Assembly (NCBI RefSeq): GCF_007750395.1
Contig: NZ_CP036281.1
Location: forward strand, 3,991,001-4,055,000
Reading direction: 5' to 3'
Length of the DNA: 64,000 bases
Source of the DNA: Polystyrenella longa
GTDB lineage: Bacteria; Planctomycetota; Planctomycetia; Planctomycetales; Planctomycetaceae
Position numbers and translations under genes: made by a program. Positions 23,399-29,836 of the stretch are shown piece by piece. The notes under the pieces were generated by a model, which saw only the letters and a list, made by a program, of their open reading frames with translations, was not told the origin of the DNA and ran no database searches. Numbering within the stretch: the stretch's first letter is position 1; each line of letters opens with the position of its first letter.

Positions 23399-24697
23399 CT
23401 AATCGACGGGTAGTTCTGGATGATGCTGAGAGACTTCGATCCTGACTTTATTAATTTTCCGTTGATCGACTTCCAGGATTGTAAATTGCAGGTGGTTCCA
23501 ACTGAGAACTTCATTCTGCGTAGGCACCCGGTTGAGAATGGTCAGGATAAACCCGCCAATGGTATCATAGTCCCCTTCTTCGGGAATCTTGTAGCCGAAC
23601 TGCTCGTTCACGTCATCAATATGTAACCGGGGATCGAGTTCGACGACGGTTTCGGAAATAATCTCGAACCCGCTTGCTTCTTCTTCGTCGTATTCGTCGT
23701 CAATTTCACCGACGATCTCTTCCAGAATGTCTTCCATACAGACCAGGCCAGCCACTCCGCCGTATTCGTCGACGACGATAGCGATATGGATACGCTCCTT
23801 CTTCATCGTCTCCAACAGCGTATTGATGCCCGTAGTCTCGGGAACATACAGCGGTTGCCGAACCAGCTTCTTTAGTGAAAATCGGTCTGCTTTTTCAGGA
23901 GTGACTTTCAACAGGTCTTTTGCGTAAAGAATCCCGATGATGTCGTCCGTGGAGTCGCCGATGATCGGAATACGCGAATGCCCTGCCTCAACCACCTGGC
24001 GTCGTGTTTCTTCCAGCGAGCCATCGACGTGGATGCAGTCCATGTCAGTTCTTGGGGTCATAATTGAAGATGTATCCTGTTCGGCCATCTCCATGACCCG
24101 ATACATCATCGTTCCCGCATTGTCCTCCAGAACGCCTTCTCTCTGGCCTTCATCTATGACCGATTGTAATTCTTCCGCAATCGTTTCCGAGTCGGACTGA
24201 GCCGGTTCCTGTTGACCTGCGAGCCGGTGAATTAGTTTGTTCGCCGATTCCGCGAAGAGCACGAAGGGTTTACCCAGAACCAGCATTGGACCGAGAATCG
24301 TCCAACTGTGGTACAGAATAATCTCGCCTGCGACTCTGGCCGTAGACCAGGGAATGATAATCAGCCCCAGGAATAAACCCAGGAACACGAGAACGAGTTC
24401 GGTAATCCAAAGAGCTGTATCGGAAGCAGTCTCTTTTCCCATAGAGGAAAAGAAGTTGCTCTGGTTAAACAGTGAAAGGGCGAAGAATGAAGCCAATAGC
24501 AACACGAGATCGACCAGAATCAGCACCTGGTCCTGCTTTTTGAGGATATCACCGAATCGAGAAGTTTTATTCTTCTTTTCGCAGATCGCTTCCAGTCGGC
24601 TCCGTGAAAAATCATGCAGCGTATAGCGGACCATAAGGAGCCAGAAGGCTGCAATTCCCCAGCAGGTGAGCAATGCGGACCAGTAGAAGAGCGACAA
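23399..24697 (-). CDS. CorC/HlyC-type membrane protein with CBS pair
   Basis: 432 residues. N-terminal DUF21-like membrane part with hydrophobic segments at about 5-25, 58-78, 92-118 and 125-150. Then a CBS pair (about 200-325; MTPRTDMDCI, EAGHSRIPI, VVDEYGGVAGLV) and a C-terminal CorC/HlyC transporter-associated domain with EEGDYDTIGGFIL. Divalent cation efflux or homeostasis is the family guess. The start codon is TTG, supported by CTGGAG 7 bases upstream; the next ATG would cut the first membrane segment. It is the last gene of phoH-pgpH-ybeY on the same strand, 21 bases after ybeY. Confidence 0.9.
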   Translation of the reverse strand: MSLFYWSALLTCWGIAAFWLLMVRYTLHDFSRSRLEAICEKKNKTSRFGDILKKQDQVLILVDLVLLLASFFALSLFNQSNFFSSMGKETASDTALWITELVLVFLGLFLGLIIIPWSTARVAGEIILYHSWTILGPMLVLGKPFVLFAESANKLIHRLAGQQEPAQSDSETIAEELQSVIDEGQREGVLEDNAGTMMYRVMEMAEQDTSSIMTPRTDMDCIHVDGSLEETRRQVVEAGHSRIPIIGDSTDDIIGILYAKDLLKVTPEKADRFSLKKLVRQPLYVPETTGINTLLETMKKERIHIAIVVDEYGGVAGLVCMEDILEEIVGEIDDEYDEEEASGFEIISETVVELDPRLHIDDVNEQFGYKIPEEGDYDTIGGFILTILNRVPTQNEVLSWNHLQFTILEVDQRKINKVRIEVSQHHPELPVD

Positions 24698-24718: not shown

Positions 24719-25204
24719 TTATTCGTTAGGGGTCGAGGCGGGGAGCTCCAGCCCGCACAATGTGAGCACAGCTTGTTCGCGTTCTCGCATGAGCATCCGC
24801 TCCTCGTCGGTGAGGTCATCATATCCAAGCAGATGTAATATACCGTGGATCAGGTAGAGGATAAACTCATTTTCAGCACTCCATTTATATTCGGGCGCTC
24901 TTTCGATCGCCATTTCGGTGCTAATGATCAATTCTCCCTCGATTCGTTTGCCAGCTCCCCTCCGGGGACTGTCCAAAACCTCGAGCTGCTCTTCTTCCAG
25001 CAGAAAACTGAGCACATCCGTGTCGTAATCGTGGTTCAGGTACTGAATATTCAATTCCCGGAGTGTCGGATTGTCGACGAGAACCAGGCTGATCTCCGCG
25101 GCGGCGACCTGCTCTTCGTTTAGCAGCAGATGCACGACCTTCTCAAGTTCCGATTCATTCACCGGCAGCAATTCCTGCTGATTGGCGATGTCCAACTGGT
25201 ACAT
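24719..25204 (-). CDS. ybeY: Endoribonuclease YbeY (rRNA maturation factor)
   Basis: 161 residues from the ATG at 25204; a TTG at 25240 is a less likely alternative. Zinc-dependent factor for 16S rRNA 3'-end maturation and ribosome quality control. Family features: LNxxYLNHDYDTDVLSF (51-67), GELIIS and the HGILHLLGYD metal motif. Odd: the canonical H-x3-H-x5-H ends in Asp here (His120, His124, Asp130), so the third zinc ligand is changed. Located between pgpH and the CBS protein, the conserved order for this cluster. Confidence 0.94.
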   Translation of the reverse strand: MYQLDIANQQELLPVNESELEKVVHLLLNEEQVAAAEISLVLVDNPTLRELNIQYLNHDYDTDVLSFLLEEEQLEVLDSPRRGAGKRIEGELIISTEMAIERAPEYKWSAENEFILYLIHGILHLLGYDDLTDEERMLMREREQAVLTLCGLELPASTPNE

Positions 25205-25240
25205 AGTAAAAAACGTATTCCTCTGGAACTGTCGTTCCAA

Positions 25241-27634
25241 TCAGTCCGCTTTCGTTTCGGGATATTTAATACGACCGTGATAGATACCAATCAGTGATTT
25301 CGTCAAGGAAGTCTGAATTTTATTTATTTCAGTGAGCGTCAAGCCAGAGCTGTTAAACTGCCCATCTTTCAACTTTTTCATCGTGATTGCGTCTACCAGA
25401 GACTCGATACGTTTTGGTGTTGGATCGGTCAGTGAACGGCTTGCGCTTTCGACAGAGTCCGCCAGCATCATTACTCCCGCTTCACGGCTCTGAGGTCTGG
25501 GGCCAGGATAGCGAAAGCTCGATTCCGAGACTTCTTCATCCTGTTCCGGATCCTGCTCGGCATTTTCCTTGGCACGGTGATAGAAGTATTCAACCAACGT
25601 CGTTCCGTGATGCTGTTCAATAAAGTCGATCAATTGGGGAGGAAGGTGATGTTTCCGTGCAAGATCGACGCCATCTTTCACGTGCCCGATAATAATCAAC
25701 GTACTCATCGAAGGGGACAAATTGTCATGTCGACTCGTCTGTCCCGCATTCATGTTTTCAATAAAGTACTCTGGTTTCAGCATTTTACCAATGTCGTGGA
25801 AATAGGCCCCAACCCTAACCAGGAGACCATTCGCGCCAATCTGTTCGGCAGCGGTTTCACCAATACTTGCGACATTGATGGAGTGGTTATATGTCCCCGG
25901 AGCCCGGCGAACCAACTCGTTCAATAACGGATGAGAAGGGTCGGACATCTCCAGCAGGCTGATATTCGTAACGACACCGAAAGTCGACTCAATGAAGGGA
26001 AGACTTCCAGCTACCACATATCCCGCCACCAGACACCATGCCGAACATTTTAGACTTTGCAGGTACCGATTGGGATTGAAGAAGAGTTGTGTTATGGAAT
26101 CGGAACCGAGAATGGCAATTCCCCAGTAGACGATGAAAGCAACCACAGCCGCCAGAAACCCGACCTTAATCAAGGTAAGTCGAGAAGGCACTTTGGAAAG
26201 GGGGATAATCGCAGTTGCCGCGACCGACATGAGGAGTATGAATTGCTTCAAATCGTTCGTCGTAGAAACGACAATGATCAAAGCGACGGCAAAACTGACG
26301 ATCGTGGCAAGCATTTGGTCATAGACGATGCAGAGAATCATCACTGCTACCAGGAAGGGAATATACTCTGCCCGCCAGGGATCGGCAGAAAAATACCGAG
26401 CGAGAAAGATCGTCAATACAATCACGGTCAAAAAGACAGACAGTTTTCCTGCAGAACCGACGAGTCGTGGATAGTTCTTGGCGAGAAAGCTTCCCATCAG
26501 AATCACCAGCACGGAGATCAGTAATGTCACTGTGAAGAAGCGAACCAGCTTTCTCTGTGGAGAGCTGTATTTATAAATCGTTTCCTGCTCGGACTGTAAC
26601 AGTTCTAAGGTGACCGCATCGATTTCGCTACGGGGTGGTAACAACACCGTTCCCGCGAGGTATTTAATGGTCACTTCCGGGGTCGATTTACGTGCTTCAT
26701 TCATCTGTTGCTGCGTAAGTTGTTCGGAGTACGTTAACGTCGGTTTCATTTGCACGGACAACCAATGTTCGACGTAAGGTCGAATCTGCGATAACTGTCC
26801 AAAGCTCGACCATTTTCTTCCCAGACGACCTGACTCACGTAAGGCATAACTTAGAAGAACGTCCTGGGCGGGGACGATTTCAACTTCTTCTTCCTCCTCA
26901 CTGCTCAAAGGGGTAACCAGAGCGACTTCCCGACTGTAATTCGGTGTAAGTACTTTTAGCTCATCCGCGTTTACGATCCCCAGTTCGGTCAGGGGATCCA
27001 GAAACAAGCGGAACTCCTCGGTCACTTCTTCCAATACAACCAACGGGGGCTGTCCTGCACTCGCAGCAAGTTCCGGATCGGGAGCCAGTGTCAGAGCCTG
27101 TTTCAATTGTTGGAATTTCGTTTCGACTTTCGCCGCCGGAGGAGTGGTGCTGGTCCCTGCTTCCGGAACCAGACCTTCCGTATTCTCGGGAAGCGCTACC
27201 GGCGTATCCGTGATATCCAACCCAAAAGCGGATTGTACTTCGGAAGTCAGATCCGCCTGTTTTTCAGCTTCGAGTATGGCGCGAAGATCTAGCGTGAACT
27301 GCTGCAGAGTCTGTTGCAATGCATTTGGTTTTCGCAAGTAATAGAGCGGCACCTTCTGGGCCCGTTCTTCCTGCTCCTGTCTTGTTTCAAAACTGTCGAC
27401 CCGTTCGAAATCAATTCGGGACAGGATCCCCTGTGGGACTGTTTCCCCCAAACGATAAGTAAAAGGGGCCCGCCAGGCTTCTACCGTGACGGACAGAACC
27501 AGAATCGCCACCACCATCGCCAGCAACCGGAGCAAAAAGCTCTCGTTGCTGAAGATTCGATCCAACCGTTCCTTCCACGACTCTGTCGTTTTGAAATTGC
27601 TGGTCCGAGTTCGTTTTGCTCCAAAGAGCGCCAT
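25241..27634 (-). CDS. pgpH: 7TM-HD family phosphohydrolase (PgpH-like)
   Basis: 797 residues from the ATG at 27634. One membrane segment (about 37-57) is followed by a long extracytoplasmic 7TMR-HDED domain (60-370), seven membrane segments (about 370-560) and a cytoplasmic HD domain (about 580-740) with NHSINVA, YFHDIGK near residue 612, and IEQHHGTTLVEYFY. The family degrades cyclic di-AMP; that substrate is known for Listeria PgpH and inferred here. It ends next to ybeY. A 403-base gap to phoH suggests its own promoter. Confidence 0.93.
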   Translation of the reverse strand: MALFGAKRTRTSNFKTTESWKERLDRIFSNESFLLRLLAMVVAILVLSVTVEAWRAPFTYRLGETVPQGILSRIDFERVDSFETRQEQEERAQKVPLYYLRKPNALQQTLQQFTLDLRAILEAEKQADLTSEVQSAFGLDITDTPVALPENTEGLVPEAGTSTTPPAAKVETKFQQLKQALTLAPDPELAASAGQPPLVVLEEVTEEFRLFLDPLTELGIVNADELKVLTPNYSREVALVTPLSSEEEEEVEIVPAQDVLLSYALRESGRLGRKWSSFGQLSQIRPYVEHWLSVQMKPTLTYSEQLTQQQMNEARKSTPEVTIKYLAGTVLLPPRSEIDAVTLELLQSEQETIYKYSSPQRKLVRFFTVTLLISVLVILMGSFLAKNYPRLVGSAGKLSVFLTVIVLTIFLARYFSADPWRAEYIPFLVAVMILCIVYDQMLATIVSFAVALIIVVSTTNDLKQFILLMSVAATAIIPLSKVPSRLTLIKVGFLAAVVAFIVYWGIAILGSDSITQLFFNPNRYLQSLKCSAWCLVAGYVVAGSLPFIESTFGVVTNISLLEMSDPSHPLLNELVRRAPGTYNHSINVASIGETAAEQIGANGLLVRVGAYFHDIGKMLKPEYFIENMNAGQTSRHDNLSPSMSTLIIIGHVKDGVDLARKHHLPPQLIDFIEQHHGTTLVEYFYHRAKENAEQDPEQDEEVSESSFRYPGPRPQSREAGVMMLADSVESASRSLTDPTPKRIESLVDAITMKKLKDGQFNSSGLTLTEINKIQTSLTKSLIGIYHGRIKYPETKAD

Positions 27635-28037
27635 AATGATGACTTTTAGGTGAACAGAAAGGGAAAGGAGAGGGGCACGCAAAGGAGACCCGACGCCCTG
27701 AATAATCTCGGCGGAGGGCTCGCACTACCGCTGAATATTGAAGAAATCGCTTTCATCAATAAACGGCAAGCTGCGTAAATCCTAGATGGGGCTCTTGAGA
27801 CAGATAGTCCAGTTCCCGTTGCAGATTGGAGAAGAAGAAAAAGAGGTCATCGCCAGACAGACTATACACCCGACTACATTAGTAAATAAACCGTAGCAGA
27901 ACGAATTGCCCCCTTGAAAGTTCACGAGAGTATTTTACAACCAGCGAACCTACAAAAATAGCATAACTGAATCGGTGTACCATATACAATCTGGGAACCG
28001 ACTCGACTGCCGCCGTACCCAAATTCGAAAATAGCGG
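27635..28037. other. Gap between phoH and pgpH
   Basis: 403 bases between same-strand genes of a normally tight cluster. No open frame of coding character, RNA or repeat was found. It probably contains a promoter for pgpH-ybeY-CBS. Confidence 0.45.
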
Positions 28038-29036
28038 TTATTCCGTCTTACCGTCGCTGGAATTCTCCCCATCGTACGCCGCGACGATACGGGCGACCAG
28101 TGGATGCCGCACAATATCCTCGGGCCGCATTCGAATTTTAGCGATTTGCGAAACCTCCGAAAGACGGCGCATCGCGTCTTTCATCCCTGACTGTACCCCT
28201 TTATCCAGATCGATCTGGGTCACGTCGCCGGTAACAACAATCTTCGAGTTGTGACCCATGCGGGTGAGGAACATCTTCATCTGGGTGCAGGTCGTGTTCT
28301 GGCCTTCGTCCAGAATAATGAACGTATCGTTCAGGGTACGACCGCGCATGAAGGCGAGAGGAATGATCTCGATAATGTCATTCTCCATATACCGTTTGAC
28401 CTGATCGTAATCGAGCAGATCATGGAGAGCATCCAGTAATGGCCGCAAGTATGGATTGACCTTGGAAAGCAAATCTCCCGGCAGGAACCCGAGCCTTTCC
28501 CCCGCTTCCACGGCGGGGCGGACGAGTACGATCTTGCGAACTTTTTCCTCGCGAAGGTCATTCACTGCCAGTGCTGCCGCCAGGAACGTTTTTCCACATC
28601 CTGCTGGTCCCGTGCAGAAAATCATGTCGTGATTTTGAATCGCTTTGACATATTCCACCTGACCGGGAGTCCGGGGTTTGATCTTCTTCAGACTTTCATG
28701 CAGCGGAGCGACATGCTTTGCAACAGACTCCCCATTCACAACCGGTGCTGCGGTCTCTTTAGTCAATTCTTCCCGAGCCGCGCCCGGATTTTTCAACACG
28801 CGGTCCACTTCCTCATCGCGCAAAAAGCCTCGCTGCTCGATAATGGACTGCATCTCCTGCAAGATCGAAACGCCTCTTTCGACTTGAGCACTCTGTCCCT
28901 GCAAACGAATTTCGTCTCCACGTACCAAAATATCCACGCCAATGCTGTCGCGTATCTGTCTCAGATAGCGATCCTGATTTCCGAACAGGGCCCGAACCAT
29001 CTCCGTGCTTTCCACGGGTAAAGTCGCTTCTGTCAT
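28038..29036 (-). CDS. phoH: PhoH family ATPase
   Basis: 332 residues from the ATG at 29036, chosen because AAAGGA lies 6 bases upstream (an in-frame extension reaches 29144). Cytoplasmic ATPase linked to RNA metabolism. N-terminal KH-like region (about 12-60; LFGNQDRYLRQI), then a helicase-like P-loop: Walker A GPAGCGKT (143-150), RPAVEAGERLGFLPGDL, Walker B FIILDEGQNTT, and the sensor TGDVTQID. Full length. First gene of the phoH-pgpH-ybeY-CBS cluster. Confidence 0.96.
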   Translation of the reverse strand: MTEATLPVESTEMVRALFGNQDRYLRQIRDSIGVDILVRGDEIRLQGQSAQVERGVSILQEMQSIIEQRGFLRDEEVDRVLKNPGAAREELTKETAAPVVNGESVAKHVAPLHESLKKIKPRTPGQVEYVKAIQNHDMIFCTGPAGCGKTFLAAALAVNDLREEKVRKIVLVRPAVEAGERLGFLPGDLLSKVNPYLRPLLDALHDLLDYDQVKRYMENDIIEIIPLAFMRGRTLNDTFIILDEGQNTTCTQMKMFLTRMGHNSKIVVTGDVTQIDLDKGVQSGMKDAMRRLSEVSQIAKIRMRPEDIVRHPLVARIVAAYDGENSSDGKTE

Positions 29037-29836
29037 GCATAGTCCTTTAACATCAGTTCGCGATTTCAAGCAGTCTCTAGCAATGCCACGCGAGCCGAAT
29101 GAGTGAATGGAAGAAAACCGTTGCCGATGTAAGAGAGATTTCACTTTCTGCGGCGTTCACTAATTTTACCCATCTCGAATTACCACGGCAAAGCCCCTTG
29201 GAAGTTCTGTACGATTCTTCAGCGACTTTAATCAATTCAACGAAAAACTCCCCTTGTCAGCCCTTCTTTAACGGAGTGACAAAAACGCCCTCTAGAATCG
29301 GCACAATTCGCAGGAATCACGTATTCGACCAGGCTTCTCTCGCGAGATTTGAAGGTGGACACTTCAACCGGCGCAAGGTTCAGGCTGCTGTTAGAAACTT
29401 AATCTTTCCTCTTCGAATCGGACGACTCACGTATTTTTTTGCCAGTCGAGAGCATTAAACACTTCCCGTTTTACCTCTTCTCACATGAGCCGATCCTGCC
29501 CAATTCGGACTTCTTTGGCGATACCGTGAATCCGGTAGAATCCGATTTGATGACTCTAAAGAACGATGGCTAGTTTGCTCGAAACAATAACTGGAGGGTT
29601 TCTCGTGCGCAGCCGAACCCTCAATTGATTCGCGCCCCACCTTTTCCCACCATGAACAACTCAAACGTCCCGAGATCCGGTACTCCGGACCACTCCGGGA
29701 AACGGACAAGATCGGGTACGAACCAACCGGCAATGTGCGGCCCCTCCACCATACAACTTACACAAGAACTTTTCGGGTCCAAACACGACTACCGCCATCT
29801 TGGACAAGATCTGGAATTCTAAGAAGATAGCCAAAT
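29037..29836. other. Long divergent intergenic region phoH/ExeA
   Basis: 800 bases. Several overlapping short open frames occur on both strands but none has a ribosome-binding site, signal peptide or known motif. No tRNA, repeat or terminator recognised. Confidence 0.5.

Follow-up and report, generated by a model that had tools for sequence, protein, structure and literature searches.

The YbeY protein of Polystyrenella longa, encoded in the 64,000-nucleotide stretch of DNA analyzed here (the window), belongs to an Asp type of the family that predominates in its own phylum, the Planctomycetota, as well as in no fewer than two further named phyla. We favor, at a probability of about 0.55, the reading that this YbeY is functional, with a metal site of the His-His-Asp kind and with a histidine (His58) that would stand in for a lost arginine. 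It is most likely that Asp130 binds the metal together with His120 and His124, and that His58 does the work of the lost arginine.

The ybeY frame is intact (ATG start, TAA stop, 161 amino acids in the translation of 24719–25204, minus strand), and a profile search of the one-contig genome (6,125,480 bases) found in this gene its sole YbeY-family match. A longer version could begin from a TTG at 25240. The ATG start is nonetheless plausible, because the structural model built from it begins with a strand (residues 2–8) and has a pLDDT of 97 in its first block. The gene and the codons discussed below are located as follows:

24719..25204, minus strand: ybeY, 161 amino acids, Asp type (exact translation and family profile matches)
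24845..24847, minus strand: His120 codon CAC, first ligand position (codon read and alignment)
24833..24835, minus strand: His124 codon CAT, second ligand position (codon read and alignment)
24815..24817, minus strand: Asp130 codon GAC, third ligand position (codon read; conservation across loci)
25037..25039, minus strand: Leu56 codon, matching Arg59 of E. coli and Arg58 of S. aureus (alignment)
25031..25033, minus strand: His58 codon, matching Lys61 of E. coli and Lys60 of S. aureus; candidate replacement of the arginine (alignment)
24854..24856, minus strand: Tyr117 codon, three residues ahead of His120 (alignment)

The protein scores 110.4 bits against the Pfam YbeY model (PF02130, cut-off 25), its sole Pfam match at E up to 0.001, and 125.7 bits against TIGR00043 (cut-off 45). 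It has the first two ligand histidines (His120 and His124) and the methionine that follows the helix (Met139), all features of YbeY membership. The metal-site motif reads H120-x3-H124-x5-D130 (segment HGILHLLGYDD), and the GAC codon confirms what a sequence-only reading of this DNA had claimed, namely that Asp130 replaces the third ligand histidine of H-x3-H-x5-H. The His-type triad (H3XH5XH) is therefore incomplete, and the RNA-contacting arginine of E. coli (Arg59) is also missing, its place being taken by Leu56. The protein lies outside the His-triad type; the curated YbeY family itself includes Asp-type members. The fold is that of YbeY as well. The predicted model (mean pLDDT 91.9, pTM 0.88) retrieved YbeY chains as the top five and top six rows of two structure searches. 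It superimposed with VIA on the E. coli protein (1XM5; Z 19.8, 145 residues, 2.2 Å) and the S. aureus protein (7Y7O; Z 19.5, 143 residues, 2.0 Å), and gave Z scores of 18.6, 9.8, and 9.2 with the proteins of A. aeolicus (1OZ9), T. maritima (1TVI), and H. influenzae (1XAX), respectively.

The genes around ybeY are arranged in the order PhoH, 7TM-HD, YbeY, and CNNM, all on the minus strand:

28038..29144, minus strand: PhoH/YbeZ-like ATPase gene, further upstream of ybeY (PhoH model 219.8 bits, under the cut-off of 380)
25241..27682, minus strand: 7TM-HD phosphohydrolase gene, directly upstream of ybeY (profile match)
23399..24697, minus strand: CNNM/CorC-type gene, downstream of ybeY (profile match)

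Genes of the PhoH and CorC types usually accompany ybeY. A review also describes PhoH as the conserved partner of YbeY. A scan for promoters and terminators was no richer than shuffled sequence (5 versus 5.5 and 8 versus 6.4). Elsewhere in the genome, we saw no canonical Era GTPase among the eight strongest of the ten matches to an Era model. The best of them is a 503-amino acid open reading frame with two tandem GTPase domains (C1:1333274-1334320 of G000), which we take to be Der-like, and the other matches read resemble MnmE, FeoB, HflX, IF-2, and Obg. A second, shorter MnmE-like frame (L397, G000:C1:22672-23034; 393 amino acids) lies beside the 461-amino acid one of L395. Era is reported to be patchy in Planctomycetota (PMC10582724).

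We detected YbeY in 140 of 149 Planctomycetota genomes and read the best locus of each of the 140. In the numbering of the window protein, which is used for all columns (52, 56, 58, 63, 113, 116, 117, 120, 124, 129, 130, and 139), column 130 is Asp in 139 of the 140 loci and His in one (L007). All six other genomes of the same family also have Asp (L022, L030, L045, L046, L049, and L117). The sequence-only reading had asked whether Asp is conserved among the YbeY proteins of Planctomycetota, and the alignment answers that it is, in 139/140 loci. Such phylum-wide conservation fits the proposal that Asp is a working ligand rather than a sign of decay, but not the notion that it is peculiar to this protein, for Asp prevails in several phyla. 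The conservation also disposes of a sequencing error at the codon, a sensible concern no longer when the residue is shared by 139/140 Planctomycetota loci and by all six family genomes. An error or a decaying gene has in its favor the single-base change that separates His from Asp and nothing more; with the frame intact and Asp conserved, we rejected this explanation as having next to no probability.

Asp also prevails in other groups. The samples from other phyla were centered on loci taken from a list of the window protein's relatives. Asp was found in all 30 loci read from Bacteroidota (match in 31/31 genomes), in all 28 read from Chlamydiota (match in 27/28 genomes plus one further locus), and in all 30 of the phylum of L214, one of them a fragment (match in 29/30 genomes). 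His occupies column 130 in 27/27 loci of the phylum of L190 (a Desulfobacterales MAG), in 30/30 read from 31 matches in that of L147 (a Spirochaetota MAG), in 29/30 read from 31 matches in that of L157 (an Actinobacteria MAG; Asp in L421), and in 24/27 of that of L144 (bacterium HR24), where the three Asp loci include one fragment. The best 80 of 548 relatives, which as the best-scoring part of the list lie close to the query, comprise 21 Asp and 59 His proteins. The five solved YbeY sequences matched all have His at the third ligand position; Pseudomonadota is represented by just two solved sequences, both with His, and the sample extends to neither Verrucomicrobiota nor Cyanobacteriota. We also considered Asp129 as the true third ligand and dropped it, because column 129 varies (D in 195/249 Asp-type rows; the rest E, N, K, R, S, and others) whereas column 130 separates the two types. 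As separate observations, L352 and L421 are Asp-type proteins from beyond the main Asp phyla; in L347, L353, and L354 (phylum of L144) Gln replaces the second ligand (HGxLQLLG) while the third is His; and G334, of the Spirochaetota group, has two full-length YbeY matches on C101 and C103 (122.5 and 111.7 bits), of which one was read.

Columns 130 and 56 were left out when trees were built from selected rows. The tree of 78 rows, which included the long branches L392 and L383, required six changes of the ligand. Removal of these two rows lowered the changes to four, and in the resulting 76-row tree the 39 Asp-type rows of the main Asp phyla, together with L007, were separated from the rest by a branch with an SH-aLRT of 95.2, a value from a quick tree method that leaves the branch less certain. 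L421 and L361 are outside the tree. The topology fits one main origin of the Asp type, one probable reversion to His (L007), and apparently separate origins for L350 and L352.

Other residues also differ between the two types. Among 389 full-length rows (380 different sequences, a few records being doubled), Arg56 is present in 1/249 Asp-type versus 101/140 His-type rows; with the last sample added (419 rows), the figures are 1/250 versus 114/169, so that Arg is absent from 55 of the 169 His-type rows. L352 is the sole Asp-type row that retains it. Arg116 or Tyr117, just ahead of the first ligand, follows the opposite pattern (245/249 Asp-type versus 17/140 His-type in the 389 rows; 245/250 versus 17/169 in the 419). 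For the remaining site residues, the counts are as follows: His120 and His124 occur together in 249/249 Asp-type and 137/140 His-type rows, Glu113 in 249/249 and 114/140, Asp63 in 249/249 and 116/140, and Met139 in 243/249 and 132/140. A strict coupling between Asp and loss of Arg was dropped, because the association runs one way only and a tree-aware sign test gave no significant link (p = 1). In the phylum of L190 (L278–L304), Leu mostly replaces Arg, with an Arg two residues on, and the TD that follows the Arg region reads TN in 21/27 loci.

A histidine recurs near the site of the missing arginine. In the model, helix 45–56 bears positions 52 and 56 on successive turns and position 58 lies just past the helix end; all three would be near the metal. 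Alignment would place His58 on the wall of the cleft where the lost Arg would sit. His at 52, 56, or 58 occurs in 0/115 rows with Arg56 and in 227/304 rows without it (419 rows), an absence that is trivial for position 56 itself. The 227 rows comprise 215/249 Asp-type and 12/55 His-type rows, and 8 of these 12 belong to the phylum sampled last (that of L157). The histidine thus accompanies the loss of Arg in both types, at a much higher frequency in the Asp type. Within the 249 Asp-type rows, it is His58 in 118, His52 in 86, His56 in 10, and both His52 and His56 in one. The 34 rows with none of them have Lys or Arg at 58 (27), Arg56 (1), or no basic residue there (6).

His52 and His58 never co-occur. 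In the Asp-type set of Planctomycetota (n = 139), 49 rows have His52, 65 have His58, and none has both (Fisher p = 4.6e-19, a value that ignores kinship). The segment 52–67 is free of gaps in 244 rows, and parsimony counts 22 switches between His52 and His58 on the poorly resolved tree of these rows. A sign test confined to well-supported branches found three independent His52/His58 pairs and was not significant (p = 0.25). When one trait was fixed on the Asp-type tree and the other simulated at fitted rates, the two shared at least 13 rows, without exception, in the 1216 and the 1538 draws whose simulated count was within 10 of the observed count. Free simulation of both traits gave zero overlap in 2% of 2000 draws, which we read as mostly an effect of unmatched counts.

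The sequence-only reading had named a nearby compensating histidine as evidence against its proposal, and the window protein offers no clear case of one. His58 does appear to line the active site, yet such a histidine goes with the loss of Arg and seems to replace Arg rather than the third His. A third His that moved across the cleft and itself binds the metal from position 58 (or 52 or 56) was the explanation first favored, as the histidine was present in 215/249 Asp-type but 4/140 His-type rows of the first 389. The last sample then revealed it in His-type proteins that lack Arg, and the role of replacement ligand was rejected as quite improbable. A stand-in for Arg fits better, because the histidine occurs in 12/55 Arg-less His-type rows and in no protein with Arg, and is replaced by Lys or Arg at 58 in many rows.

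The role proposed for the arginine draws on characterized homologs. Arg58 of the S. aureus protein (position 56 here) grips a citrate on the zinc and Lys60 (position 58 here) is by the modeled RNA (PMC9895993), and the RNase activity of E. coli YbeY requires the His triad, Arg59, and Lys61 (PMC5101352). In the favored reading, His120, His124, and Asp130 would bind one divalent metal, while His58 (elsewhere His52, His56, or Lys/Arg58) would assume the phosphate contact or the acid-base work of Arg; the Asp-type protein would still serve small-subunit maturation. As a counterpoint, mutants of the equivalent Arg and of the third His keep ribosome maturation in several species (PMC7515705), so a catalytic role in vivo is not required of either residue.

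A serious alternative, possible though with the odds against it, is that the protein is mainly an assembly factor at uS11, metal-bound but catalytically weak, with the metal site kept for shape. Human YBEY mutants of Arg and of the third His rescue the knockout, the RNase activity being apparently dispensable, and similar results are cited for the proteins of E. coli and B. subtilis (PMC7515705). Furthermore, an acidic residue, Glu or Asp, occupies the uS11-contact position (Asp85 in E. coli, Glu91 in the window protein) in 240/249 Asp-type rows. The invariance of His120, His124, Glu113, and Asp63, each conserved in all 249 rows, and the repeated regain of a basic residue near the site suggest more than a scaffold, however. 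The favored reading of a functional enzyme with a stand-in histidine can be extended, as a tentative suggestion, to a second active-site design that spans several phyla, with a His-His-Asp center that perhaps holds a non-zinc metal, and with repeated settling of a basic residue at 52, 56, or 58 after Arg was lost.

In reviews and papers, YbeY is described by its His triad and conserved Arg (PMC8191802, PMC5101352, PMC7515705), and new hits were verified by the triad, as a diagnostic feature, in one survey or more (PMC7515705). Bacteria with Asp-type proteins show that identifying YbeY by this motif is too restrictive. The active site of YbeY may be built differently in a large share of bacteria, and bacteria that naturally lack the third His and the Arg offer a natural test of YbeY as RNase or assembly factor. 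We found no mention of an Asp-type YbeY in the accessible portions of the open-access literature, supplements and subscription journals aside, and no biochemistry of any such protein in the same portions. The Asp type with a stand-in histidine is, as far as these searches show, new.

The window protein shares with the His-type proteins of known structure (1XM5, 7Y7O, 1OZ9, 1TVI, and 1XAX) the family profile, the fold, and the first two ligand histidines, but differs in having Asp at the third ligand, Leu at the place of Arg59, and His at the place of Lys61. A site of two histidines and one carboxylate could also hold Fe(II), Mn(II), or Co(II) and serve in hydrolysis or even in an oxidation, an unlikely option for which YfcM (EpmC) is the precedent. 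This iron-binding hydroxylase has two His and one Glu on a YbeY-like fold, which resembles the arrangement seen here, but its carboxylate derives from another place, as a Glu of the following helix, and it lacks the YbeY cleft (PMC4231759). The window protein has no match to the EpmC/YfcM Pfam family at E up to 0.001, and its family, gene neighbors, and conserved cleft residues point to work on RNA. Asp-ligated zinc sites also exist and count against a metal other than zinc. Some zincin proteases, such as snapalysin, have Asp as the third ligand and a HEXXH motif. The likeness to these zincins is the Asp in lieu of a third His; the window protein differs in its HGILH segment, which is without the Glu of HEXXH. 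Metzincin-like entries align with the model at Z scores of 5 to 8, a range typical of a common arrangement.
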